Below are positions 4,201 to 53,840 of a stretch of 64,000 nt of DNA, in pieces. Source of the stretch: Solicoccozyma terricola. Lineage: Eukaryota > Basidiomycota > Tremellomycetes > Filobasidiales > Piskurozymaceae. Within the stretch, counting starts at the first letter, position 1; the number at the start of each line of letters is the position of its first letter. The notes below the pieces were generated by a model. The model was not told the origin of the DNA, did no database searches, and was given only the letters and a program-made list of their open reading frames with translations. The translations under genes were made by a program, and so were the position numbers. The stretch spans positions 130,364 to 194,363 of the forward strand of contig BCLD01000022.1 in the NCBI GenBank assembly GCA_001600875.1. The letters are read 5' to 3'.

Positions 4201-7200
4201 AGCGCTGCTCCGCGCTCGAGCGACAGCGGGAAGGCCACTGCCAGCCCCGAGATCTCGAGAGAAATGGTGTGCTTCTCCAACCAGTCCTTGCGATCCGCAG
4301 GCGTGGGCTTGACGTCAGGCTTGATAAGTCTGGATGTTTCCTGCACAATGTCCGTCCATTCCTTCGCACGCCTCTCGCGGACGACCCTCATGTCTGCAGA
4401 CCAGCTATTTAGCATATCATAAACCTGTCCTAGAGCTGTGACTTGAATGACGGCATGCGCATTGGCTATACGGCCATGAACGTGCATCATAGGCGAAATG
4501 GAATGTTGAGCGCGTTGAGATAAGCCTATGTCGAACACTAGGAAGGCGGTCTCTATGACCCGAGACTTGATGTCGCGGTCTGCCTCTTGTGATTGTAAAG
4601 CAGTAGCTATGCCAGTGGAAAGCCGAAGTCCTTCAAGTCTGACGTCCCACGTAGTAAAGTCGAAAGCATTCTTTGCGGAAGTCAGTTTGGTTATTTCGAG
4701 ATCTTGGCCGCAATTTGTGATCCAACCTCGGATACTGCTGGTCTGAACAGTAAGCAGCGACGAAACTCCGGAGGCTCGAAGGCGGACCGTGATGCCCTTG
4801 CTCTCCACCTTGAAGCTGTAGAGTAGAGTCCGCTTGATATCGATAGGTGCTTCCACCGGCAAAGAGGTATCCCTCTTGCGGATTAGAGTCTCCCCGAATA
4901 AAGCCAATGCTCGCACATCTTGGCCGAGGGCCTTGTAGGTGGAGAGAATCCTTTCCAGCACTGTCGGCTTGAAAGTCCCGATGAAGGGGTCGATACTAAG
5001 AGAGCCACGGACCCGGATCGTATCGCGAGACATCGCCACTGCAATCGCCACCGTGATACAGGGAAAGCGGATCGCCTTGGCATATGCCTTGTCGTCGCCG
5101 AGACTAGCGATGGTGATATTTTGGCTGAAGCCCGAGCTTTGACTACCGATTTTTAACCCGCCGTCGATTGGGTCGCCGGATGTCAAGTCTGCCAAGCCGG
5201 ATTGACTAGCATGTGCGTATATGTCATTCAAGTGCCAGAACACCCAGGCTTTACGAGAGATGCCGATAGTGAATGATAGCCGCTTGATGACGATATCAAG
5301 GGCATAAACAGGCCTTGACCTGCTCGTGCTCTTTCGCGGAGACGAGATCGACTTCTTGCCGTTCAAATCATCTTGCAACAATGATTTGAGGGTCGCCTCG
5401 TACTCGCTACAGAGAATTGACCTTTCATTAGTATCCACTTCACTAAACAGTATTAGAGCTCGAACAACGCACGTCAAGTGTTCGCGCCTCCAAACTGTCA
5501 TTAGCTCGTACACCCTCTTCGGATCCTTCAGCGACCTGAAATTGACCTGTTGACATCGGATTACGAGATCCAGGTGATGCTGTTGTGACTGATTTTCGTT
5601 CCATTGGGCGAGGAAACCTTCGATTGTCAGACAGATAAGCTCTTCTCCGTCACCCTGTAGCATGATCATCCCAGAGCCCAGCTCGCCCGCCAGAGTCATG
5701 TTGCACCCTGATATCGTCCGCTGCCCATCGCGGCTGGCATCTAGCTCCGAGGAGTTTGAAGCGACCGTGCCAGTGAGCCTGAATTGCTGACCTTCCACCT
5801 CACATCTCAGTGTGTGCGCATTGAGACCAAATAAGGATCGATCAACGGCAACTGATATCACAACGTGGACGGGGTACGTTCTTTGCGACTTGGAAGCGTC
5901 TACCGAAGAAGGCGAAGCGCTCGAAGCCTCGTCAACACCGGCCAAAGGTGTCTCCAGAAGACCGTTGACTGTTGCAAGAACGGACGGATACGTCTCCAGC
6001 TGGATCAAGCCCAACTCGACGTTCATGTCGACGACGCGCCTGGAGCAGGGTTCCGGCTGTGCAAATTTGATGGTCGAGACGAGGTTTCTCGTGGTCAGTT
6101 CGCCCACTGGATGCGAATCCCCGTCTTCCTGAGCCTTCAAGACGAGCTGTGTATAGCCTAAGTTGAAACAGGTGCATCCGCCGGTCTCACCGACCCGGGA
6201 TGGGGAGCCTCCGTATTGATTGCTGGCCTGAAGGAATGGGAGCTTATCAAGATCTTCCTGACTGTAATCATCCCTAAAGCTGAGTAGGGCATGCGTGCTT
6301 GCTTTTCGGGTGTCTTCGAGTTGATCCTGGGGTATTGGAGTTGTCTGGTTTACAGGATCAGACCCTATTCTCTTGCGGACCAGGTGGCGCAACCTGCTCA
6401 ACACTTTCCAGCCCACGTCGTCTCGTAAACTGTTCGGCTCATCTTTTGATGTTGGAGGTCTAAGTAGGTCACATTTCCAACCCCAGTAATGGGGATCGTC
6501 ACCCAATGTGTATGTTGCGGTCAAATCAGTGAGGACGGCGTGAACAAATTGCAAGTCCCGGTGGAGAGGGGTCGGTGTGTGAAGTCTGTTGCCAGAGATC
6601 GCTTCCTTCCAAGGTGAAACAAAAGCGGTGACGACTTTGGCCTGCACCGGCTTGATTGTGAAGTTGGCCTTACCGAGGTGAAGACCACTTGAGCGCTCAG
6701 CCTGATTGGAGACATTGTAGAAGCCCTTCGATCCATTCAAGTTGCACTGCATGTACTGTATGCGGCTCAGGGGTTCCAAAGAAGACCTCCCCGTTGAACT
6801 GGCTTCGTTCGCCGAAATACTTACGCTGACCATTTGAAGGTCCAGCCGAGCGATGAGAGAACGGTCATGTTGATCTCCCGAAATGGAAGACATCCTTACC
6901 ACCAGGGACTTTGCTAATAGCTCTGTGGTAAGCAGGGTGGGAGAACCCCGCTCATCTCTTGTCGGGATGCATGACTGTTGAAAGACCTTGAAAGACACCT
7001 CGGGTAGGCACATATCCAGGCTTATCCGTGAGCTGTGGTTGAGCTGGGAAGTCACACTGGCTATACGATCTGATAGCAAGATGTCGAGATGGGTCTCGGG
7101 CGAAATGGTCATCGACTGTGGATAATTTAGACATGAACAAGCGAATTGTGAAATGGGGTCTAAGAACTTACGATATCGTTCCAAACGCTCCGAACTGCAC

Positions 7201-10200
7201 AGAGAGCTGGGAGCATGGACGGCGTGACCATGATGCGCAAAGCTTGACGACTTCGTACTCGGATGAAGGTTGTGCACTCCCCAGCGCAAGCATCTGGAGC
7301 AGCTTCCGAGAACCTGTCGGAGACGATGTTGAAGTCGTCGCAGTCCTCGAGTGAGGTTGGATTGATCTTTTCAATCATTTACATCAGGTCAGAGATAGAA
7401 GGGATCTGTTAAAGAGGACACTCACAGGCTCGAACGTGCTAGTCGTCGATGCGTCGACTTTCCGAAAGAGTTTTAAGATCTTCAGCAAATCGGCAGGAAT
7501 GCGCGCATGTTCCTGCACTTCAGCTTCGGTATCTCCGTCGGCGTCTCTGTCATGAACAGTGTTGCGCAGTGGAACCGTGCTGTCGCTTGTGGATGGTGCA
7601 CTATCCGAAAAGCCACCGGATTCACCGGAAGCCGAGTCGTCTGGACTACATTAGAGTATTGTCAACATGAGGATAGCTAGTAAAAGCCCAAGCATTGCAA
7701 CTTACCTGATGCCACTGGCGATCTGAGTGGGCCACTCTGTAGTGAAGTCGAGGGATGATGCAGAGCTTTGGTAAGCCCCATCCTCGGCACCTTCGAGGCT
7801 ACCGCTGTCATAGTCGTCATCAACACTGCTCTCAGCATCAGAAAATTCCTCTGCAATGTTTGACAAGGTTCAATATTTCTGTTTCATGGATATCTAAACG
7901 TCTTCACTCACCCTCTGGCGTGGTCGGCATGACGGGATTTGGCAGGTAAAAAGGCTGACAACGGATGCCGACCCGAAGGGGCCCTTTTCGAGTCCCTTGG
8001 AGATTCCCAACATGGACATACAGATCCTGCAGCCGCTGTGTGGCTTTGTCTTGGGTGGTTATGAAAGCCTGTTGCTTGGTGGCCTTATCTTGCCAGCCCT
8101 GTGGCGTTCCGAAGAGGTCGAGTTCCACAGCGCCAAAAACGTTGGCTACTTCGCAATAAGCTGTGGTAAGCTTGGTTATCCTCAACAAAACCTTCAGCTG
8201 TATCTCTGTGATCGTGAGGGAGACCGCAGAGTAGTATGACTGCCCTGCCAATGTGTTGAGTCCAACCGACAGCCCACGAGGCATCTCGGCAACTATGGCA
8301 GTCTGACCTTCCGTAACGGTGAGGCCAACACGTTCCACGGCCAAACGGAGAAATGTGACTGCGAGGGAAAGCCAAATGTGTCAGACGCTGAACCACATTC
8401 ACCAGAGAGACAAAATGAGAAATTACCATCAGGATCAGTAGGAGGATTGTACACAGCCGCAGGAGCATTTTCCGCATCGGCATAGGTTGTGGTGAACGCT
8501 CTTTTGACTCCGCCAAGTCGATGAAGCAGGTGTAGACCGCATTGCCCCCCGATGGACCCGAGTTCGAAGTCCCAGAGGCACAAATAGGTCGCGTTGCGAG
8601 GAGGCGGACCGAATAAACGATTGGCTGTGATTCGCAAGCCTGGGGGACCGCTTGACGTCAGCACATCACTTGCCGCTGCACTCCGTATGTTTAGACATAC
8701 CATCAACCAGCAGACTCTCCTTCGGTCCTCCAGACGGAAGGCATGAACTGGCGAAGACCTCCGCAGTGTGGTCCAGGTACTTTATGGAAAAAGGTGGAGC
8801 GTTGACAATGAGTTCTGTTTGGGACTGAAGTAGATTAGGGGCGACTCAGATGCGGTCGATGAAAGGTGAGTACTGACCCATGTAGTCGGAATTTGATCGA
8901 AGATGGACCTGCAGCTCGGGAACGGGTATGATCGCGCCGCCGTCACATGAATAGATATTTTCCGGAGCGATAATGATGCCGTTGGTGCAAGAGAACTCTA
9001 GGTTGACCTCAAAAACATCGGACTGAGAAAACACTCCACGTTGTCAGGATCGTTACGATGAACTCCAAGCAAAGACCGTCTCACTTTTCCCGGTCGATAT
9101 TTTTCCTCCACGCGATCACCGAAAACTTTCGGCACCTTGTCCCAGTCGTCAACGAGCTCGCCAAACGTCCGAAAGTGAGTGAATGACCCAAAGTAATTGT
9201 CTTTGATTAGAATCATGCGTCGGATTGCCCAGCCTAACATACGGAATGAGACATTTTCGATCTGCAAGCAAGATGTAGAGGTCAAGGCACCAATCGTGGC
9301 GGGTAGCGAACCGCATGACTCACATGTACTACGAGGCTCAGCGTTTCAACGTGGTCCTTTGAGACTGCGGTGTAGTAGAGATAGGTCCCTCGGACATCCA
9401 GAATACCAATTTTGCCGACTTGCCGAGTGTCTGGCGTGCCGAAGCTATTCTGCGTGTGCCATCCAGGCAAAGTCATATCCAGATGGATATCGGATCCTCG
9501 GACAGAGAACGGTATGGTCGTAGATTCTGGCCGGAATCTGATCGCAGGAACTTCTATCTCTGAGGACAAGTCGTCGCCATACAAGATTAGAAAGGCTGCG
9601 CGGAGTCAGCAGGGTCAGCTTGATTCGCCGGGCTGTGGGATGGAACACTTTGCTATTGTGGATGCAGGACATACCATTTTCGTCGTCCCTGTTAGGATAA
9701 TCGACCACATTAAAGTCGTTGACGTACAGCTTTATTTGATAATGAGACAGCGTGACTGTGAATTGATAGTCGTAAGGCGTGAAGTGGAAAAAGTCGCCTT
9801 GTGGACCCGAACTCCAATCCTTGGCGAGATCCGAGATGAGAGTGACATGATCACGAAGCAGAGTTATCACTGGTCGCGACATGGTGATATCGAACTGCCA
9901 GTCGCGACGGGCGTTCCAAAGCAGTGGCGTCGGCATTCTGGCCGTGACCTGAGGGGCCGATTGTAAGTGATGAATAGATTGCATCGCCAGAGCAAAATAC
10001 TTACCCGGCAGGTATCGGCGTAGAGGAATGTGTCGTAGTTGACATGGGACGATACGCTCAGACCATGAAGACCTAGCTCTAGAGTGGTGCTGTAGCCTTC
10101 AGCGGTAGCAACGATGGGCAATGTATATTGGACGAAAGACCGGGATCCGATCTTGAGATCAAGCCAGCCAAATTTCCTCTGGACGGGAGGTCCGTTGTGG

Positions 10201-12416
10201 CGGGGATATTCCCAGTCCTGCGCGGTAGGTTGGTGAATGTCAAGCGGATACGAAACCAACAATTCTTGAACCTACCTTGGACGTTTCTCTAGTCGGCATA
10301 CGCAGTACTGTCTCGTCCATCAGCTCGACGCAAACCTTCAGCTCGGAATGTATCCTCTTATCACCCGCACAAAGACGTGGTGTCGGATCAGAGTGAAAAA
10401 AGATCGATGGCGCGAAAGCTCGCATGATTGCGTCTCTGATTCAAAGTCGGTCTTAGCAACCCTCAACTCAGAGTCAAGACGGGTAAACTCACCTCTGTCG
10501 ATCGGCCCATGGGCCGTAGGTCAAGGAACCTCCATGCGTGACCACGTCTACGCCCCACTCGGGTGGAAGATCCCCATTCCCAATACAGTCGTTCAGGAGC
10601 GCACCACCCGATTTGCATCCAGGAGGTACGACACCTGAGGGAAAAACGTTAGCCCAGTCCTCTCTCTAGCAATCTCAGGTGGCCCCATGTCGTACCTGGT
10701 ACATCCACGTAGTATTCCAGATCCAGCGCAGGTATGTCAAGCAGGGTAGCTACCTTCGCATAGTCAGTCTCCTGTAACGTTTGCGGTCGCATCTCGCGAC
10801 CATCGACATTCCGATATCTCGCCAGGCCCTTCCACTCGTTGTCGGGACCGTAATAAGCCGAAGCGTAACTAGGAGGTTTGGTGAAAGATCCATCATGCAT
10901 CCATGCAAAGCGTTTGGAGAGGTTATGGAATGCTGCTCGTGCGGTGAATTCCGCTGGAGGTTTATGAAGGAGGGAGTGCCTTGCAATAGGAACATGGTGG
11001 TCAGCAAGTCAGCTAGCTGCGCAGGCTTTTGTTAGTCTCAACGACTCACTCGTCCTTGACCAACTCCTCGTACGCCCTCTTTCCATGCTCTAGCAGTACC
11101 CCTGTATAATCCGGATTCGTTCGGACGAGCACTTTGACTTGCGTGAAGTTGAACCTCGCCAGCTGCTTGTACAAATCCAATTTGCTGCGGCTCTGTTAAA
11201 CGACGGTCCGACGTTAGCTCGGCGACCGAATTCTTCTCTCCTTCTCCATACAACACCTACCTCCGTCGCTTCATACGTTCCAATTCCATTCTTAAACTCG
11301 GCAATCGTAACTGTCGGCGTCGAATCACTTCCAATAACCACCGCACCGGTATCCACGATGATCTCCAGCGGTAACAAATCCCTCGCCCAATTCCATTCCG
11401 CTTTTTGTTCTTCTGGACGACGGGATTTCCGAAGACGTTCTCGCAGTCTAGCAGAGGGCGGAATGGGAGGTGAGAGGGGACGAGGGCGATTCAGGTGATC
11501 TACTGGTTTCTCTTCATCGTGACCTTCAGGTGATGGAGATTTCCGTCCTCCCCACCATCTACGACGTGGACGACGAGGCTCGGATTGGTTCTTGATGTCT
11601 CTGGTGGGAGTTGCTCGCGATTCTTCCGTCGCTTTCATCCGCTCCACGATGGCGTCGTACGCTGGTGTTCGATTGTAAAGGAACCATTCGAGACCTTCCA
11701 TGTATATGGAGCAACGGCACGGGAGTTTGACTGCAGGGTTGTACATCGGAGGGTCAGATATAGCAGTGGACATCCTTTTCACGACACGTACGATTATCTA
11801 ACGGTCCCTCCGTCCTCACATTCCACTTCCAGAACCGCCATGTGACATGTCCCTTTAATATCCGCAAAGACATGTTGGATGAGTGATATCGTAGGTTTTT
11901 GAAGAGGATACGGCCGGAGAGTGGGGAGAATTGGAGGGATTCTGAGAAGTGCCATGCAAGAGGTTTTAGTTTGTCGGCTTGCAATTGAACGTGATGAACG
12001 GCTCCTCACCGAACGAGATCCAAACATGCTGAGATCGCCATAGCGCAAGTCGGAGGATGAATCCAACGATAACGCCGACCAGTCTATTCCACCAGAAGAA
12101 GATCTGTAAGGGATGAAGGAGATCGCCCGAGCACATATGTCAGTGTCAGACTGTATGTCATAAGAACCTGGTAGTTCTTCCACTTACGCCGATGACGACT
12201 ACCCAGATCGCGACAGCTTCCACGAGGAACAGCTACGGTAAACAACGTGATCAGACTTTTAAAGCTACCTAAAACGACCTTCACCCCACTCACGACGTTC
12301 AGCTGGGACTGACCATCCCCGATGGACTGAGCGCTAGCAGTCGACGGTCCCAGCAGTAAGCTGACCCATAACCAGATCGCGGGAAGCGCGCTCGCCGCGG
12401 TGTTGTTTAGTTTCAT
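1240..12416 (-). CDS. CSF1: Csf1, bridge-like lipid transfer protein (BLTP1 family)
   Basis: One gene of about 11 kb read from ATG at 12416 to TGA at 1240-1242, split by many short GT-AG introns. Exon 1 begins MKLNNTAASALPAIWLWVSL, a probable signal or anchor helix. The next two exons join into the membrane segment LFLVEAVAIWVVVIG plus IFFWWNRLVGVIVGFILRLA, then follow SGRILFKNLRYHSSN and HVTWRFWKWNVR, and PCRCSIYMEGLEWFLYNRT. This succession is the N-terminal signature of Csf1. The C-terminal exons (GKVELRPPQMNILGDFSEDL) match the end of the family. Yeast Csf1 is about 2,950 residues; here about 3,300 are possible after introns. Csf1 and its animal relatives form rod-like lipid channels at ER contact sites and are tied to phosphatidylethanolamine supply for GPI anchors and to cold growth. 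The last intron (donor near 1717, acceptor near 1656) joins VVSLPNT to VAMSSLEDTL. The largest single exon frame runs from about 7.1 to 4.1 kb. Exact borders of every middle exon were not fixed. Confidence 0.85.
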
Positions 12417-12937: not shown

Positions 12938-15900
12938 TCATTGACATTGCATACTCTCTGATAATTGTGCAGAGTCGGTGGTTACACCGTTTTGACCACC
13001 TGCCCCCGACTCCGTGCTTGCGTTTGACACTACGCAACAAGGTCAGGATATCAACGTCCTTGCACGGTGTTGAAAGCAAAAGTGACTTACCTGATGGTTC
13101 ATAGGTATTGTAACTTAAACGGTCTGCACCGGGCAAGAATGAACCAGCTTTCGTTGACTCACTTCGACGTTGGATAGGTTCAGCAGCCTCTGGTGTTCCA
13201 GCACCGGTGGAGTTGAGCAGGTCAGATAAGACAACTTGAGAGCTATGGGATTGTGCTGTCACACTCACCAGAAGCAGCAGATGATATCTCGGATATGATA
13301 CCCTCATTATCTGAGATTGGTTATAGGATCAGACAAAACAACTTGAATCGGCCCCCTGTTCCTCCGGTTGACAAATATGCAACAACGCCCTTGCACGGTG
13401 AAAGCAAAGCGACTTACCTGGTCCGACATGATGCACGGATTTTCGGAATATTACCCTCTGCCTTTCACGTTCCTTCACTGGGGAAGACATGTGGTTAGCA
13501 GAGCAATGAGCACGTGTGAATCTGGTTACAAATCACGCACTTAATATCCCGAATTCTTTGAGAGGGTCCTCTTTATTGTTCACCCTCCAGCCTGATATTT
13601 CAGATAAGCACGAGAGCCAACTTGCAATTCAATGAACCAGCTTTAGTCCCAACTCACTCAGTTGTCGGGCACGACGTCGGGTAGTCTCTTCTGCAGTCTC
13701 TGGGTTTCGAACTGTTCCAGCACCGGTGGAGTTGAGCAGGTCAGATAAGACAACTTGAGAGCTAGGGGATCGTGCTATCACACTCACGAGGAGGAGGAGG
13801 AGGAGGAGGAGGAGATAGCCCGCTGACATCCTCAGCTGAGAATGGTTATAGGGTCAGACAAAACGACTTGAATCAGCCCTACCGTTCCATCAAGTTGACG
13901 ATATGCAACACCGTCCTTGCACGGTGTTGAAAGCAAAGCAGCTTACCTGTTTTCGGGTGATAACCACCGCGAGGAGGAGGACCGGGAACAGGTATAGGCA
14001 TTTCTGAGAATAGTTCTAGGGTCACCCTAACCTTTGAGAGCTGTAGGATATCACTCACTAGGACGATCAGGAGCTACAGTATGGGGAGAATTTTGGTCAG
14101 CCAATCATCCCCCCATCCGTCCAGTTGACAACATGTAACCACGTTCTTGCACGTGACTTACCTGTTGAGCGAGATGTGTGGGACTCTTCTACTGCGCCAT
14201 GTGTCGTGGAGGTTCCCGTGGCTGAACAGGGGAAGACACGTACGTGGTTAACAGAGCTATGGGATTGAGTTGTCACACTCACTTGAACCAACAGATGACC
14301 TCTCAGATTCGATATCCACAGTATCTGAGATTGGTTATAGGGTCAGATAAAACAACTTGAATCAGGCCCCCATTCCTCCTGGTTGACAATATTGAACAAC
14401 GTCCTTGCACGGTGTTGAAAGCGAAGTGACTTACCTGCTGAGATCGTAGGTCCATAATTGCATACGGAGACGCTATCCCCTGCTGAAAAGGGGAAGGACA
14501 TGCGGTTAACAGAGCCATCGGCACGTCACGCATGAATCTAGTTTTAAATCACACACCCTCCCACCTCTTATCATTACCTGCATCCCAATGACTTGGGAGA
14601 TCGGTTGGGACAGGTACTGCTATTTCAACACGAGCAAGCACAGGGGAAGACACGTGTTAGCGGAGCACATGACAATTTGGTTAGATATCACACACCGGAA
14701 AATTCGCCCGGAGGCGGGATCCAGTCAAAGTGCTTTTCTGTAATCTCAAATTAGCACGTGAAGCCAGATGAGACATCCAGAGAGCTAGGGGATAGTGCTG
14801 TCACACTCACTCCTCTTAGGATAAGAAGCATCAGGATATAAAGCATCAGGATAAGTTTCTGCACCGGGGAAGACATGTGGTTAACGGAGCAATCACACTT
14901 ATGAATCTGGTTACAATTGACACACTCGGTTCTGCGGTTTCTAGAGTTGTTCTCGTAATCTTGCCTGTATTCTCAAATGAGCACATGATGCCCAACAGCT
15001 TTATCCCACTCACTTGGTCTACGGATGTTTTGCCTTCTTTGTGAAGCTATTCCCGGTGGAATTGAGCAGGTCAGATAAGACAACTTGACAGCTGTGGGAT
15101 CGTGCTGTCGCACTCACGACGAGGAGGAGATTCCTGGCTGACATCCTCATCATCTGAGATTGGTTCTAAGGTCAAAGGCAACAACTTGAGAGCTGCGGGA
15201 TTGTGCTGTCACTCACGATACGATCCATACTCGGATGAGAAATAACCTAGGTTTCCACCAAACAACTTGAATCAGCCCCACCGTTCCATCACGTTGACAA
15301 TATGCAACACTGTCCTTGCATGGTGTTGAAAGCAAAGTGACTTACTTGATGCGGTATATTTGCCAGGGGACTGGGCCGGGCCACTAGTGTCCTGGAGCGT
15401 CCCGTTGCTGAACAGGGGAGCAATCGACATGCCAACACATCAATCGGGTTTTCAATCACACACCGGAAGTATCTACGTACTATCTCCCCCGCGCTGTAAT
15501 CTCAAATGAGCACGTGATGCCCAACAGCTTTATCCGACTCACCAGTACGGGAGACTCGCCTTCTTTCTGGCCCTATTCATGGTGAAATTGAGCAGGTCAG
15601 ATAAGACAACTTGAGAGCTAGGGGATCGTGCTGTCGCACTCACGAGGAGAACGAGGAGGAGGAGGATATGGCTCCCCGTCATCCTCATCATCTGAGAATG
15701 GGTATATGGTCAGAGGAAACAACTCGAGAACTATGGGATTGTGCTGTCACACTCACCAGAAGCAACAGATAGTGTCTCAGATGCATCTGAGACTGGTTAT
15801 AGGGAAACAAACTTGAATCGTCCCTCCGTTCCTCCTAGTTGACAATATGTAACGTCCCACGTCCTCGCACGTGACTTACCTGTTGCTCGAGATGTGAGGG

Positions 15901-16837
15901 ACCCTGCGGAGGTTCCCCTGGCTGAACAGGGGAAGACACGTGGTTAACAGAGCTATAATCATCTGTATGCTACAACGTCCTTTCATGGTGTCGGAAAGCA
16001 AAGCGGCTTACTTGTCATTTGAACAACCACGATAGGCGACTCCCTAAGCGATGATGAGCCGGATCTGGTTGACTTACTTTGAGCTGTTTCCACACGGGCA
16101 GAAATTGAGCAGGTCAGACATAACAACTTGAGACCTACAGAATATCCTGGTCACTCACTACCTTCATTATTCCTTTTCGCAGGTGAGGACCGCCACTTCC
16201 GGACACCCGCAAAAGCTAGCTTCTTTCCTTTACGGAACAATCCTTCTCGTGGCGTTCTGCGTTCTCTTGTCCCACTTCCCAATCCGGTCTCATCGACCGT
16301 GCTTTCCGTTGCGCTTCCGTTTGTAGATCCGATCGTCTCAGTTTCCGAAGGGAAAGTTCCTTCGACTACTGCTTCAAATTCCTTTCGGTCTCTGTTCCGG
16401 TCTCTGGTGGCTTCCAGATTACTGATTGTCTCGTGGTAGCGAAGCCAATAATTAATCGTGAATTTTACGTCCTTGGTCCAACTGATCATTTTTTGCCACC
16501 TGCGTCCATGCCCGAATGATTGCTTCTCAATCGCCTCTGCCTGGGATCTGATGTCATCGCACTTATCTGGGCCTTCAGACAAAAAGCAGATTAACGTTAT
16601 CCGCCTCCTCGCAAGTCTTTTGATGTCTCCGCGCTTCTGAAAATTGCGCATGTCCCTGCTTTGTTCGGTAATTGATCGCAAATGCCATTTTAACCTCCGG
16701 TAGCCGTTAAGTTCGAGCTTCACTCTGCGCATTTTCTCGTATTGGGGGAAGTGAATAACTACAACTTCGCTGTTGATTATTTTTTGGGATTCCCTCGTTT
16801 CTGTGTTCCCTATGGAGGAGGATGACACCGACGACAT
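12938..16837 (-). CDS. Unknown protein encoded by a 28-exon micro-exon gene
   Basis: Not a recognised family. Exon 1 (16837-16159) encodes 226 residues from ATG (MSSVSSSSIG), rich in R/K/E with one short aromatic stretch and no evident signal peptide. Then come 27 small exons (upper-lower): 16083-16012, 15921-15880, 15786-15757, 15691-15644, 15572-15543, 15479-15464, 15407-15346, 15246-15217, 15153-15118, 15046-15014, 14964-14926, 14858-14811, 14737-14696, 14619-14557, 14482-14435, 14324-14283, 14221-14162, 14073-14059, 14003-13947, 13835-13788, 13711-13658, 13591-13541, 13477-13418, 13310-13269, 13189-13163, 13123-13091, 13029-12938 (TGA). Internal exons are 15 to 72 nt and all multiples of three except the 16- and 62-nt pair, which compensate each other. 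Every intron is GT-AG, mean about 74 nt, usually with a CTGAC- or CTAAC-like branch site. All introns but one are phase 1. The spliced frame is open for 632 codons. The tail is low-complexity, rich in S/T/P/E/R with a proline run. The least certain acceptor is that of the 16-nt exon, since the acceptor homologous to its repeat sister would give a stop. Confidence 0.75.
13030..16158 (-). repeat. Tandem array of repeated intron-exon modules
   Basis: Four intron types recur, mostly in the order A-B-C-D on the minus strand. A starts GTGAGTGTGACAGCACGATC and ends after CTGACCTGCTCAA (15573-15643, 15047-15117, 13712-13787, 13190-13268). B starts GTGAGT and carries ATAAAGCTG or TAAAGCTGG (15480-15542, 14965-15013, 13592-13657). 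C starts GTGTGTGAT or similar and ends with TAACCACGTGTCTTCCCC plus an AG (15408-15463, 14859-14925, 14620-14695, 14483-14556, 13478-13540). D starts GTAAGTCACTTTGCTTTCAA and ends ATAACCAATCTCAG (15787-15879, 15247-15345, 14325-14434, 13836-13946, 13311-13417). Chimeric introns occur: A start with B end at 14738-14810, A start with C end at 14222-14282, D start with C end at 15922-16011. The pattern fits repeated unequal crossing-over of a unit of roughly 500 bp. Confidence 0.85.
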
Positions 16838-18354
16838 CCTTGAATTGCTCTTGTAGTAGGAGCTGAGGGAGGTTTATTGAATGAACACTAATAGGGCACG
16901 AATATTGCTGGGCTAGTGTGGAAGAGCTCGAGGTAGCCTAATGAAATGTTATTGCAGGAGGATAGTGACGGGTGAGTTGGTGGGGACAGGTGAAAGATTC
17001 CTACTGACAGAGATCGGTTGACACTGACTGCGATGATGGTGACCAAGTGAAGAGAGTAGATCGTTCCTGATGTGAGAGAAAGCAATGACTTCAGATTGAG
17101 TTTCTGTCTTTGAGGAGTCGAGGGTTATGTTGAGTGATGTGCTGTGGGTGGCAAAAAGGGAAGGGAACAACAGCTCCCCCCTATAAAGACCCGGTATCTT
17201 ATAAGGCCAAGATAGAGTGGCAAATATATTGCAAAGGAGTGAAGTTTTGATAACGAGAACCCAAAACCCAAAACCCAAAACCCAAGGATAAGCCGGGTAA
17301 CTCCTTTCATTAGCCAAACCACAAGGGGGCCCTTCAAAGTCACAAGGGGCTTAAACATGTTCGAGTTGACATCCCAACCTCTCAAATCACTCTTTCCCTT
17401 GTTGATTCTGTAACCGTTTCAAACCAGCTGCAAACCCCCTTTCGGTACAGCATGTGGGTGTATCAAGAGAGGTCGCATGGCCCGGGTGTTGTGTCGTGGG
17501 TTTGTATGATGCTGGCGGGATACCTTGTTACCTGCGAGACGGCACATGACGGCGCCTATCACCGAACAGTCGGCACTTGTGTCTTGCCGACTATCCGCAT
17601 GTCCTACCTGAATGACACCCCTAATCGTGCCTTGACCTCGACCAGTAGAGAGATGTGATCGGATAGCCGATTTGGGAAAAAACACGACGTCGCCGGACCA
17701 TTACTATAATATAAATGGAATTCAGGCACAGGTCGATTTGTGGCAACTGGTCTTTCTGTCCTGCCCCTGCCCAACCAATCGACGGAGTGGGAGTCGTAGC
17801 ACGCACCATCCACTCTGCCAGCTCCAACATATCTGAAAGGACCGGCAGAACATCCGAGACACGATCACCCGCAGTACTTCGTCACGTGCAGTTCCGGATG
17901 AACGGTAAGCTACAGCTGGGGAGTAGTGGAGGGTTGCCTGTCGTAAACAAACAGACATACTTTGAGAGGGTGAGTCGTCAAGTTTTAATGCAGCCGAGGT
18001 GGAAGCTGACTGTCACCGGCCGGTCATTTCCTCTCAGATCCGCCGAATACACCACCTCATGACAGCTCCAACGGACTCCGAATCATCTTCTTCCTAGTTC
18101 ATGGTCTGGTCTCGGTGATATATTGATGACTCCCAGACGGTGGTAGTCGTTAGATACACCTCGGAGACATATATGAGGATCTAGGAACTTTCAAGAGCCA
18201 GGCGATATTGTAGGAAACTTGAAGTTCCCATTTGGTGATAGGCACAGAAAGCAAGTTGGGAAGGCTTACGAACTCGGTACGGTTTTGGCGCACACCGCCA
18301 TCCTTTCCACTCCTCGCTTTCAAAGTCCTCGTCCACAACAACCCAAATTTCAAA
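16838..18354. promoter_or_regulatory. Divergent intergenic region, micro-exon gene / site-2 protease
   Basis: About 1.5 kb with no supported gene. It should contain both promoters. On the minus strand a TATA-like TTTATAG lies near 17178-17184, with TTATAAGAT just upstream, roughly 340 bp before the micro-exon gene's ATG. A short direct repeat of the unit CCAAAAC occurs about three times at 17260-17283. Open stretches on both strands here have no family resemblance and no good splice continuation. Confidence 0.4.
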
Positions 18355-21024
18355 ATGGACCTCGAAGAAATCTTCCTGATCTCCACCCTCCTCCTCCTCA
18401 TCATCTTCCTCATACGTTCATCCCGGCGCAAAATCAGACGAGCAGGTAAACGTGGTACCACGAACTGGGTCAAGAATGTGCAGAAAGTGTGGCTATTGGT
18501 GGTTGGAAGTGGGAGACGCAGATCGAAGGGCAAACAACGGAGAGTTTCGTCAAGAGAGGAGAGAAGAAGGGCAAGACAGAAGAAGAGGGATCAGAAGCGG
18601 TTGACGAGGACTGCAATACCGATGGATCAAGACGTGGACAATGACGAACCAACGAATCCGATCAAGGTTCCAGGGCCATCCTTAGAAGAGATGGCGGCTC
18701 TTACATCTGAATCCAGTTTGGCTTCATTGCAATCGGATGAATCGTTGGATGACGACGAAGATAGCGAGATTTATGACTCACATGAATCGGATGAATCGGA
18801 TGATCATGAAGATGAAGAGATCGGGGTGGAGAAGTCTTGGTTTGGTATTACGATTTGGACGAGGGTGTATAATTCGATGGCGTACGATTGGGTACACGGG
18901 ATTGACAACAGGAAACTACCTTTATCAGGCGGTTACATCCTACCTTCCTCGACGCCTGGCGGAATACCTGTCCTGCCAAGAAGGATGGAGAAGAACACCT
19001 CTAGACTGGAAACAAGGAAGAGGGTTTGGAGGGGTTTGTACGATGTGGGATGGGTATGGGCAGTTATGGCGATGATCATCATTACCATCTTGGTCGCATG
19101 GAGTGCAACTACTAGTTGGATGACGATTTGGAGGACGGTCAAGAAGATTAGAAGAAGGGATTCGGCTGCACCAGTACAAGAGACGACAAGGTTGATGAAG
19201 CGATTATTCGACGAGGAAGTCCAGTCGCTATCGGGTTCTACATCTGCAACAACGTCCGCGGGCATCGCGTCAAGTTGGATGGAAAGCGATGACGTTTCCG
19301 TCGTTAAGCCATTAGTAAGTCCGCGTTGTCATCACAGTCCAGTCCGCGTTGTCATCACAGTCCCTGTGAATCCTGTTCTGACAAGCACTTGCCACAGATA
19401 CCTGGCATAACAACCCCCCTTTCTCACCTCTTTCCTCTGTTGTTCGCCCTCTTTATCTGCCAGGTTATCCACGAAACCGGACATCTCGTCGCTGCAGCCA
19501 TCGAAGGAATCAAACCGCTACGGGTTGGCGTAAGCTTTTGGTGGGGGTTGGTCAGTGCGGGTGTCGCGTTTGGTGGGGATGTGGAGAGGAGTGGAATGTG
19601 AGTTTGCTCAGCGGTCTGATCGGATCCTCCTATGCGCCGTGTACACGAGGAGTTGGAAATGGAAAACCTTCGTTGGCTTCACAGTTGAGGAGGTGTCCTC
19701 ATTACGTCGGAGCTCTGGCTTTCCTTTACTATGACATAGCTGACACTCGTACATCATTCTCAGCCGGCCACGCCTAAGAATATCGTCCTCTGGACCATTC
19801 CATAACTTCCTGACCTACCTGCTCCTGCTCTTGGTAGCAGTCACAGGCGTCTTCAATCTCCCGTACCGAGACTACACCGAGCACGGCAGAATCATCCTCT
19901 CTTTCTCGCCGGTGCGTTCTTCTGCGCTTCTTTGCCCTGTGAGGTAGGTCGTGGCTGACCGACCGGCTGCCAACAGAACACTCCCGTTCAAGATCACATG
20001 CCCAGATCAGCGATCATACAATACGTCGATGACATTTACGTTGGTGGAAAGGAGGAAATCTGGGAAGATTACATGACGAGCTCGAGAGTCGGTAAAGGCC
20101 CCGGAGAACAGAGAGGTTGGTGCGTGGATAGAAAAAGATATGAAGGTGAGTCGAGTATCCCTCACATGGCTGTAACGTTTATCTGATACCTTTCACCTAT
20201 ACTAGCCAGCACAAAATCGCCCTGTCATGTGGATGCACCAGTTGCATTCGAGGCCTATCCGTTCTCCAGCGCGCCACTGGGTCGCTCAGAGGACGACGCC
20301 GACACACACTGTCTTACCCCATATCCTCTCCTGACGACCCGCACATGGCCTTGCCCATGCAGTCAAGCGTCTCAGGTCTGCGTGCAACCTCATCCGAGTG
20401 AATCGATCACACGCATCCAATGGCTTCTACCTGGAGAAGAGGACTTGCCGGAAAGGGCAAGAAATGAGAGGAGTAGAGTGATGCTGTGGAAGGGCGATCG
20501 AAAGGAGTTTCTTGAGGGAGTCAAGACAGGACGATTCGGACCGAGAGGCGGTGCGACGGGCCACTGGCTTTTGGGGATGCTTGAGATCATGTTTGGGTGA
20601 GTTGGAGGCAGTAACAACGATTTCTCTGGGGTTTCTCAATGAAAGGGTGTTATACAGGTATATATCAACGCTGTCTCTCACACTTGCACTGCTTAACCTC
20701 CTACCACTACCGAAGCTGGATGGGGGGCATGTGCTGACCGCGCTTCTTGACTGGATATACCCTGGCACAAATGAGCCGATAGAGGACCTCGAGGACGGCG
20801 CCGGTGAACAATTTTTCGGATTTGGCGAGCACTCACTCTCTCCGCGGAGAGGACAGCTGTACGAAGGGGCACAAGAAGTATCCACCTTTACTGCGACCGT
20901 CGAGAACAAACGCCGTCGCCATCTCATCGAACGGAGCATCAGTTGGGGGTGTGGCGCAATTGTCGTCTCGGGTCTAGGAGGAATGGTGATGGGTATGGCT
21001 GTAGAGCATTTTGGGCTAAAATGA
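18355..21024 (+). CDS. STP1: Membrane-bound site-2 protease (S2P, M50 family)
   Basis: Six exons give one open frame of 744 codons: 18355-19314, 19398-19597, 19764-19911, 19977-20145, 20206-20596, 20658-21024 (TGA). The N-terminus has an anchor helix (FLISTLLLLIIFLI), a basic then a long acidic cytosolic stretch, and another helix. Exon 2 carries the zinc motif in QVIHETGHLVAAA (HExxH). Exon 3 gives RLRISSSGPFHNFLTYLLL, the S2P segment after the active site. Exon 6 has LNLLPLPKLDGGHVLTALLD, the LDG motif with the third zinc ligand. S2P cuts transcription factors inside the membrane. In Cryptococcus the S2P Stp1 releases the sterol regulator Sre1 in low oxygen, and the same role is inferred here. 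Family assignment is strong; the symbol assumes orthology. Start ATG 18355 is chosen because the upstream in-frame ATG gives a weak leader. Intron 1 contains a short tandem duplication. Confidence 0.88.
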
Positions 21025-51724: not shown

Positions 51725-53840
51725 TCACATCAATGGATCCTTGATCTCCATCGTCCACCAAATGGGTTTATCAGTCGTTAATCGAACAACAGGTTCTTCA
51801 GGTAACAGATGATTAGAGGTTGAGATATCCGCGGAGAATGATGTTGGCCAATCTGATATAATAACCGACAGGGAAGATCGTCAAGGGGGTGGGATGGCCA
51901 TTAAGATAAATTGTTACTTGCCTAGATTCCACTTCAACCCCAAAGTCTTGACATACGCAACATCAATTCCAAGTGGTAAAATCCCACAAGTCTGACCAAA
52001 AACCTGATGATCTACATGAATGATATGGTGACCCTGATCCCATCCTCAAAGACATCAGTCCAAGACAAACGAAAAAGGACTATCCCACGACACTTACAGC
52101 ACCCAACACCCATGCCACTGAACTCTCCGAAACGACTCTAACATCCCTTTCCTTCCTCCTTCCTTCCACCACTTCTTGATCCGCATTGCTCGTGCTCGTG
52201 CTACTTCCGAATGTGGTTGTAAGACCTGTTGATAATTTCTGAATGTATGATAGCGTATGTATGGTTTGATCTAAACGACCAGATAGGCCACCTAGAATGA
52301 TGATTCGATGTGAGTGCTAGGTGTAGGGGAAAATACCATTTTCCTTTCGTCAGTGCGTGCGTGGTAGGTTGTAGATCGGGAGATTGGGAGTAAAAAAGGA
52401 ACAAAGAGGAAAATTCCCTCACTTCTAACCCGTTGATATCTTCTTTCGGTAAATCCGATTGAAGATTATCAACCTCTTGAACGCATTTCATTAAATCCGT
52501 TGAATATTCATCTTGATCTTGTTCAATCCGAACTCCCTGTTTTCGAATAAATATTTAACAAATATTCCAGATTCAGTTTTTCCCTACAAATCGATAACGA
52601 GTACCACCAGGTCATAAGGAGAAAGAGAGGAAGAGGAGGAGGAATAGGAGGAGGAGGAGGAGGAGGAGGAGGAGGAGGAAACCCTCCAGGAGTGCTCGCT
52701 ACATCCGCGGAGAGGAGTGCGGAAATGCTCACTACACTAGCGGAAGAGAGTGTTGCTCGTCGCACTTGCAGAAGACGCAGTCTTTGGCTTCGCGAAGAAA
52801 TGAGCACTCGCTTTGCTCTCAAGGCAGTATTCACTGCTCCGAGAAGAAATGAGCACTCGCTTCGCTCGCAAAAAAAATGAATGCTCGCTGCGTTCGCTGA
52901 AGGATGGCCCTAGGAGGAGCCTGGTTTTCGCTTCGCGATGAAGGAAGAGACGAATACTCGCTTGGTTCGCTGCGGTCGCTTGGCTCGAGAGACTCACCAT
53001 AGATTCATAATACGCCCTCACGTCATCCCTCAAACTATCTAAATCTCCCATTATCAAATCAGGTAACCATTTCAATTCTTCTACCGATTCCTTTTCAATA
53101 TAATAAGAAGATTGACGTTCTAATTCATCCGTTTTCAAAGTAGATTGATCTTCAGATCGGTTTTGATCTTGAAGGGAGTTTGACTGAGGATTGGGTATCG
53201 AGTCGTGAAAGGTTGGATCTGAAGTTGGGATGGGTCGATTCTTTGTTCGATTAAATGGGAATTGACGAATCAATGACCGTCCCAAAAGATGATCATGGAG
53301 TCGATTTGCACCTCCATCTGCACATAATTTGATGTCACCTGTTCAACAACATAAAACGGGGAAAGTGGGGGTGTTTGGATTGTTAGCATTGCCCGCGGTA
53401 TACTCCCAGAAGAGGAAGAGAGTATCGCGAGAGAACAGTATTGCAAGCGATACTCGCGGAAGAGAGTAGTAATTGCTCACTACGTTCGCGAAGAGAGAAG
53501 AAATGAATGCGAGCATAGTCTTCGCGGAGCAAAGACATATGAATGCTCACTACGTTCGCGAAGACTGCTCGTTGCGCTCGCGGAAGAAGAGCTCCCTGAC
53601 GGGAGCCTGGTCTTCGCTTCGCTCGCGACGAATTCCCACTACGTTCACTCGCAATAACGTACAAGCCTCCCAAATCCTTTCCAACGTATCATGTCTCGTA
53701 ATCGGTTGATTCAGAATGATCAACGCCTGTTTCCTCTCCTTGCCCCGTGTGGAATGTGATGTTGTGCCTGGACGACCCTTTGATAAAAAGTCTGTCGTTG
53801 TCCATGAGCAAGTGTGTAGTGGGAGAGTCGATGAATCCAT
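51725..53840 (-). CDS. THI80: Thiamine pyrophosphokinase
   Basis: From ATG 53840 (MDSSTLPLHTCSWTTTDFLS) with KQALIILNQPITR, then across a long intron DIKLCADGGANRLHDHLLG, then LPDLIMGDLDSLRDDVRAYY, then across another long intron VRIEQDQDEYSTDLMKCVQE, then ILGGLSGRLDQTIHTLSYIQ, then later exons ending VVRLTTDKPIWWTMEIKDPL and TGA at 51725-51727. CADGGANR, PDLIxGDLDS, DQDxxSTD and GGLxGRxDQT are the conserved blocks of thiamine pyrophosphokinase, which moves pyrophosphate from ATP to thiamine to make the cofactor ThDP in the cytosol. Two introns (about 53643-53341 and 52999-52541) are several times longer than usual here because they carry repeated sequence. The gene diverges from SPG1 with about 210 bp between. 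Confidence 0.85.
52620..53000 (+). repeat. Repeat block in THI80 intron
   Basis: The plus strand shows a GGA tandem repeat (about 52631-52680) followed by diverged copies of a short motif of the form GAAATGAATGCTCGCT or GAAATGAGCACTCGCTT joined to CGTTCGC or CTTCGCT, ending near 53000. A phrase AGGAGCCTGGTTTTCGCTTC (about 52914-52933) recurs in the second block as GGGAGCCTGGTCTTCGCTTC. The host gene lies on the opposite strand. Confidence 0.7.
53390..53650 (+). repeat. Second repeat block in another THI80 intron
   Basis: It shares with the block at 52620-53000 the motifs GAATGCTCACTACGTTCGCG (twice or more, near 53475 and 53550), GAAGAAATGAATGC and the GAGCCTGGTCTTCGCTTCGC phrase, in the same orientation. 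Copies are imperfect and alternate with AAGAGAGTA-type spacers. Confidence 0.7.

Follow-up and report, generated by a model that had tools for sequence, protein, structure and literature searches.

Here we describe a predicted micro-exon gene on the minus strand of a 64,000-nucleotide stretch (hereafter the window) of contig BCLD01000022.1 from the basidiomycete Solicoccozyma terricola. A large first exon is followed by an array of short exons, separated by introns that resemble one another more closely than the exons do. We consider it probable, with moderate confidence, that this is a real, single-copy and narrowly distributed fungal protein gene built in two parts, namely exon 1 (16159-16837; 679 nt, 226 complete codons) and an array of symmetric phase-1 exons (12938-16158; 27 introns with 2007 nt and exons 2-28 with 1214 nt), the array having grown by module duplication and been rearranged by recombination in introns to give a quickly changeable tail. 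All exons and introns discussed below lie on the minus strand.

The original prediction, made from the sequence of the window, placed 27 GT-AG introns joining 28 exons in one open frame between 16837 and 12938. We rebuilt the gene model from the sequence, refining borders by hand against sister introns and against the end point of that prediction, and recovered this predicted spliced frame, which begins with an ATG at 16837 and closes with a TGA ending at 12938. Its introns measure 39-111 nt, the first and last exons have the 679 and 92 nt assigned to them previously, and the earlier description of an array in which nearly all introns share phase 1 and nearly all internal exons are symmetric was reproduced: 26 of the 27 introns are phase 1, intron 7 being phase 2, and 24 of the 26 internal exons have lengths divisible by three, compared with 9 of the 27 introns. 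A second splice-path search, with relaxed scoring and no phase rule, also arrived at 28 exons, 25 of its 27 introns being phase 1. Some details required correction, as the rebuilt product has 630 amino acids (631 codons including the stop) rather than 632 codons, exon 7 has 13 nt rather than 16 nt, and the internal exons span 13-72 nt rather than 15-72 nt. The proposed micro-exon architecture is supported nonetheless: such genes have coding regions made up largely of short symmetric exons, as are the 26 internal exons found here, with two qualifications: exon 1 alone makes up about 36% of the coding sequence, and half of the internal exons measure at least 42 nt.

With splice sites held fixed, the open frame exceeds what chance would produce. 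Exons 2-27 contain 373 codons without a stop, and the absence of in-frame stops contrasts with a mean of 16.0 when exons were shuffled 20,000 times, zero never being reached. We tested apart 18 of the 26 internal exons, hand-picked because the intron halves flanking them on both sides fall into similarity groups (z > 5, with the splice consensus excluded). In this subset 17 of 18 lengths are multiples of three, the phase-1 frame has no stops compared with 6 and 19 in the other two frames, and shuffling gave a mean of 10.7 stops with 0 of 20,000 shuffles at zero. Across exons 2-27, codon usage likewise fits the spliced frame better than either alternative (rank test p = 2e-5), the training set being six long open reading frames of the window, mostly of unproven status. 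A free splice search from the gene's start scored 154.7, compared with a top score of 67.3 from 267 other ATG starts in the window and a best score of 23.8, with a mean of 4.0 exons, in 100 runs on the wholly shuffled array. The locus also stands out against a background of twenty 10-kb stretches sampled from this genome, about 0.8% of its length: the 3.2-kb array has 21 GTRAGT donors as opposed to at most 9 per 3.2 kb in the background, where the mean of 40 strand maxima was 4.3, and its longest same-phase run of introns with exons of at most 80 nt was 19 on the automatic path, as opposed to at most 4 from 1,913 background ATGs. One background stretch, L014, contains a splice path of 21 exons at about 5224-9180 (score 75.5, longest same-phase run 4), which is probably an ordinary intron-rich gene.

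The introns of the array are alike and its exons are not. At z > 7 every intron except 7, 14 and 26 (24 of the 27) has a match among the others; identities in the pairs listed run from 70 to 96%, for example 21/25 (96%), 5/10 (92%) and 16/24 (92%). At the laxer threshold of z > 4.5, ten of exons 2-28 match another (3, 4, 5, 8, 10, 16, 17, 18, 21 and 25) and 17 of 27 match none, exon matches being harder to detect owing to their short length; recognisable copies are 3/18, 5/10/21 and 17/25. In four module alignments, chosen among ten possible, identity was 57, 56, 45 and 58% in exons compared with 78, 71, 78 and 78% in introns, these figures including misaligned parts on both sides. Within families, similarity at donors was 0.43 on the exon side against 0.69 on the intron side, and at acceptors 0.42 against 0.68. 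Because similarity breaks off at the splice sites in this way, the borders are supported independently of the frame. The original prediction omitted both this conservation of introns over exons and the hybrid introns described below, which point to rearrangement of the DNA itself.

Similarity that begins and ends at splice sites, together with 17 partnerless exons, would also fit a scenario in which mobile introner-like elements spread and broke up an older frame, so that the exons would never have been copies. We regard this explanation as very improbable. Introners are recognised as similar introns in many unrelated genes, and no convincing copy was found elsewhere: three probes, representing two intron families, matched only the locus in 23.9 Mb, save for one match with three mismatches to a 21-letter pattern, the other families not having been probed singly and masked stretches being invisible to such probes, and when the whole array served as a DNA query, the sole match was the array. 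Moreover, insertions would hardly yield phase 1 in 26 of 27 cases, the order of intron types recurs between introns 3-7 and introns 8-12, and some exons are copies, as listed above.

That recurring order extends to the exons, whose types follow one another as beta, alpha, gamma and delta in exons 3-7 and in exons 8-12, and with losses in exons 20-23 and 24-26; the intron types repeat in equal order over the first two of these runs. Exons of the beta type are exon 3 (15880-15921, 42 nt, with 90% identity to exon 18 over aligned bases), exon 8 (15346-15407, 62 nt, which restores phase 1), exon 16 (14435-14482, 48 nt), exon 18 (14162-14221, 60 nt) and exon 24 (13418-13477, 60 nt). The alpha type comprises exon 4 (15757-15786, 30 nt), exon 5 (15644-15691, 48 nt, kin to exons 10 and 21), exon 10 (15118-15153, 36 nt), exon 17 (14283-14324, 42 nt, with 71% identity to exon 25), exon 21 (13788-13835, 48 nt, with a proline run) and exon 25 (13269-13310, 42 nt). 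To the gamma type belong exon 6 (15543-15572, 30 nt), exon 11 (15014-15046, 33 nt), exon 22 (13658-13711, 54 nt; a 42-nt form in the same frame on the automatic path) and exon 26 (13163-13189, 27 nt), and to the delta type exon 12 (14926-14964, 39 nt; a 6-nt form with another acceptor and the same frame on the automatic path), exon 14 (14696-14737, 42 nt) and exon 23 (13541-13591, 51 nt). The remaining exons are exon 2 (16012-16083, 72 nt), exon 7 (15481-15493, 13 nt, with donor GTACGT; an exon-12-like donor, GTGTGT, lies 17 nt further on and would include an in-frame TAG), exon 9 (15217-15246, 30 nt), exon 13 (14811-14858, 48 nt), exon 15 (14557-14616, 60 nt), exon 19 (14059-14073, 15 nt), exon 20 (13947-14003, 57 nt), exon 27 (13091-13123, 33 nt, preceded by the shortest intron, of 39 nt; a 23-nt form on the automatic path) and exon 28 (12938-13029, 92 nt including the TGA stop).

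The intron halves fall into recurring similarity groups, and one donor-half group is paired with four acceptor-half groups. The cleanest switch between families is that of intron 17 (14222-14282), whose first 30 nt track intron 25 and whose remainder tracks introns 2 and 12. Two further hybrids are intron 2 (15922-16011), with a donor half grouping with introns 8, 16, 20, 24 and 27 and an acceptor half grouping with 7, 12, 15, 17 and 23, and intron 13 (14738-14810), whose donor half belongs with introns 5, 10, 21 and 25 and its acceptor half with 6 and 11. Introns 4 (15692-15756) and 9 (15154-15216) are hybrid by grouping, the donor half of each falling with introns 1, 5, 10, 21 and 25 and the acceptor half with introns 3, 16, 20 and 24, and in both the switch is not sharp. 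We propose that a module comprising four exon types, each accompanied by half-introns of its own, was duplicated to build up the array, and that recombination inside similar introns would add, remove or reorder whole exons and leave hybrid introns behind; because the introns share phase 1, the frame would survive such events. The outcome would be a fast-changing tail behind exon 1, which might serve as something quickly changeable such as a binding surface. This proposal supposes that the gene is transcribed and fully spliced, and splice variants may add to the change in the tail.

Exon skipping in the array would mostly preserve the frame. Among 351 possible joints at which at least one exon is skipped, 325 are predicted to be phase-compatible, and none of these 325 contains a stop; none of the 27 exons that precede an intron ends in T. 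The claim of the original prediction that exons can be skipped in any combination thus stands for most joints, but exons 7 and 8 are safe only together. In contrast, retention of an intron would bring in an in-frame stop, within the intron or at its edge, in 24 of 27 cases (all except introns 12, 26 and 27). Taken together, these properties suggest that skipping would be tolerated and retention mostly would not. In one comparative study, exon skipping in fungi is described as comparatively low (PMC6142364).

Exon 1 has no Pfam family and no sequence relative in the PDB at E <= 1, and the 630-residue spliced product matches no Pfam family at E <= 0.1. A structure model of exon 1, of low confidence (mean pLDDT 50, pTM 0.32), has three long helices; a Foldseek search of this model against the PDB had a best E of 0.72, with 0 of 118 matches at E <= 0.001, and was not used. 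Exon 1 may, going by the model, code for a helical N-terminal region, and the tail encoded by exons 2-28 is probably disordered because its 403 residues are rich in serine (13.9%), proline (11.7%), arginine (9.2%) and threonine (8.4%). No signal peptide is seen in the N-terminus (MSSVSSSSIG...), as judged by eye alone both here and in the original prediction.

Two metagenome proteins, P0001 and P0002, are related to exon 1 with identities of 57% and 54%; they have 232 and 204 amino acids, and both end where exon 1 ends, in SE. The longest contigs behind P0001 and P0002 measure 6213 and 2054 nt. A profile of three exon-1 sequences recovered the same two relatives and no more, and two pattern matches in virus contigs were not relatives. 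For the spliced product, no relative was found among the 7,985 candidates sharing most words that were scored from the protein collection, the short exon-1 relatives falling outside the length range. Over the last 40 residues of the unspliced reading of exon 1 (16154-16273), P0002 is identical at 39 and P0001 at 21, compared with 80 of 164 and 111 of 187, respectively, before that point. The mosaic seen in P0002 suggests exchange. Exon 1, P0002 and the array DNA each match one genome place (23.9 Mb, 33 contigs), these counts being lower bounds.

Several observations weigh against a micro-exon gene of this kind. Our initial splice search penalised introns heavily and applied a strict rule to acceptors; its best models had just 3 exons, and 28 exons came after the scoring was relaxed. 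In the final model, the hand-set exons 12, 22, 27 and 28 depart from the automatic path. Exons 7 and 8 fit only through the odd donor GTACGT, keeping the frame as a pair, and this irregularity (15346-15493) represents either a compensated pair or early decay. When sites are chosen freely, arrays with shuffled exon letters still chain into a mean of 26.8 exons, the real score being reached by 6 of 300; this is because the intron sites survive such shuffling and very short exons seldom contain a stop. The earlier statement that chance breaks the frame quickly is therefore valid with fixed sites, where it is borne out by the shuffles above, but not with free site choice, and we rejected the free splice-path search as proof of coding. 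The unspliced reading of exon 1 stops where both metagenome relatives stop. Among the seven clearest exon pairs, pooled nonsynonymous (pN, 0.27) and synonymous (pS, 0.20) differences are alike, these pairs overlapping and ten further pairs having aligned too poorly for use; we therefore claim neither protein constraint nor positive selection, the latter having been considered on these counts and found unsupported. Finally, constraint on introns or their homogenisation could be the source of part of the exon-intron contrast. A conserved hairpin in the GTAAGTCAC introns was unsupported when eight introns of one family were folded, with three consensus pairs and no compensatory changes.

Some of these points would be accommodated if exon 1 were a complete single-exon gene and the array a decayed or non-coding remnant, or mostly unspliced. 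Reading on from exon 1 without splicing meets a TGA at nucleotides 6-8 of intron 1, giving a protein of 228 amino acids (..EGSE) that ends in SE exactly as both metagenome relatives do, and the similar levels of nonsynonymous and synonymous differences among exon copies and the irregular exons 7 and 8 fit such a remnant. We nevertheless hold this alternative to be unlikely. The absence of stops from exons 2-27 at fixed sites, the predominance of multiples of three among internal exons as opposed to introns, and a codon usage that favours the spliced frame all argue against it. As to the shared ending, a phase-1 A|GTGAGTGA donor spells SE-stop anyway, and the gene callers applied to metagenomes probably work without splicing.

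Alternatively, the tail may be constitutively spliced but no more than a neutrally drifting low-complexity expansion, with no role in diversity. This reading would sit well with the roughly equal nonsynonymous and synonymous differences and with a tail rich in serine, proline, arginine and threonine, and the stops met in 24 of 27 retained introns would suggest that mis-spliced products are lost rather than used. Against this, drift alone does not account for the greater divergence of exons relative to the adjoining introns, unless the introns are constrained or homogenised, and the one intron family folded has no supported RNA structure. We therefore judge a purely neutral tail improbable as well, and continue to favour a two-part gene whose array was rearranged by recombination in introns.

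The surroundings of the gene agree with the CSF1 and site-2 protease neighbours named previously. Csf1_N pieces lie on the minus strand at 9445-10098 (E 1e-16) and 11090-11797 (E 1.1e-9), both under the curated cut-off, and an M50-type protease match lies on the plus strand at 20482-21024 (E 2.7e-8). Three direct copies of TTTTGGG occupy 17260-17280 on the minus strand, upstream of the micro-exon gene. Elsewhere in the window, a thiamin pyrophosphokinase catalytic domain is found at 52737-53342 on the minus strand (E 2e-10).

Comparable architectures are known. Schistosome micro-exon genes (MEGs) have many short exons, mostly multiples of three, and their splicing has been proposed as a source of variants (PMC10526429, PMC5825161); three of their isoforms have been called disordered (PMC10399815). 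The present gene shares with them its many short, mostly symmetric exons, a likeness of architecture. The schistosome genes differ in carrying signal peptides, in their introns, which range from 100 to almost 5000 bp, and in number, 35 being listed for S. mansoni, whereas here the introns measure 39-111 nt and one gene was found. Aphid bicycle genes have many unusually small internal exons starting at codon position 2, that is, with phase-1 introns, and keep this gene structure while the coding sequence is highly divergent (PMC9168663). The many small internal exons of one phase in our gene, with 26 of 27 introns in phase 1, are of the same kind. The bicycle genes, however, are a large insect family of putative effectors, many strongly expressed in salivary glands, whereas here each genome search matched one place, in a fungal genome.

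Among fungi, the nank (NACHT-ANK) genes of Tuber melanosporum are reported to be diversified by alternative splicing of micro-exons (PMC4986451, PMC10197012), so that fungal micro-exon diversity as such is already known. Those exons are codon-sized (3 bp) and belong to a receptor family, unlike the exons of 13-72 nt described here, and the 630-residue product contains no NACHT or ankyrin domain among Pfam matches at E <= 0.1. Exon shuffling is also a source of diversity in the brown-algal NB-ARC-TPR genes (PMC10197012), which are receptors with repeat domains, in contrast to the short segments without a known domain found here. Xlr2 of Trichoderma virens contains a functional microexon (PMC11121469), but this is a single regulated one in a transcription factor gene and not an array. 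The SP7 effectors of mycorrhizal fungi were considered as a parallel and set aside, the available text describing tandem repeats and a conserved intron and containing no use of the term microexon. Among the matches listed from open PMC papers, no report describes symmetric micro-exons arrayed between conserved introns in a fungus. What is new here is such an array of symmetric exons whose introns are conserved and in part hybrid. By architecture, we place the gene among micro-exon genes, its first exon being large.

A more far-reaching reading, which we put forward tentatively and think rather doubtful, is that the locus is built to diversify. Conserved introns would act as handles for recombination, through which symmetric micro-exons are continually swapped, gained and lost, and splicing would add a further layer. 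Individuals of a single species would then differ in the tails attached to a fast-diverging N-terminal region, a pattern to be expected if the protein takes part in nonself recognition or binds an antagonist. The exon 1 end held in common with P0002, set against the lower identity before it, hints that the N-terminal part may be swapped too. The two metagenome relatives are on record solely as proteins that stop at the exon 1 end, so genes of this kind may fall into a blind spot of annotation. Micro-exon diversity genes are best known from animals such as blood flukes and aphids, and the S. terricola locus would provide a small, testable fungal case of exon shuffling within a locus, in which exon count and order can be read across strains.

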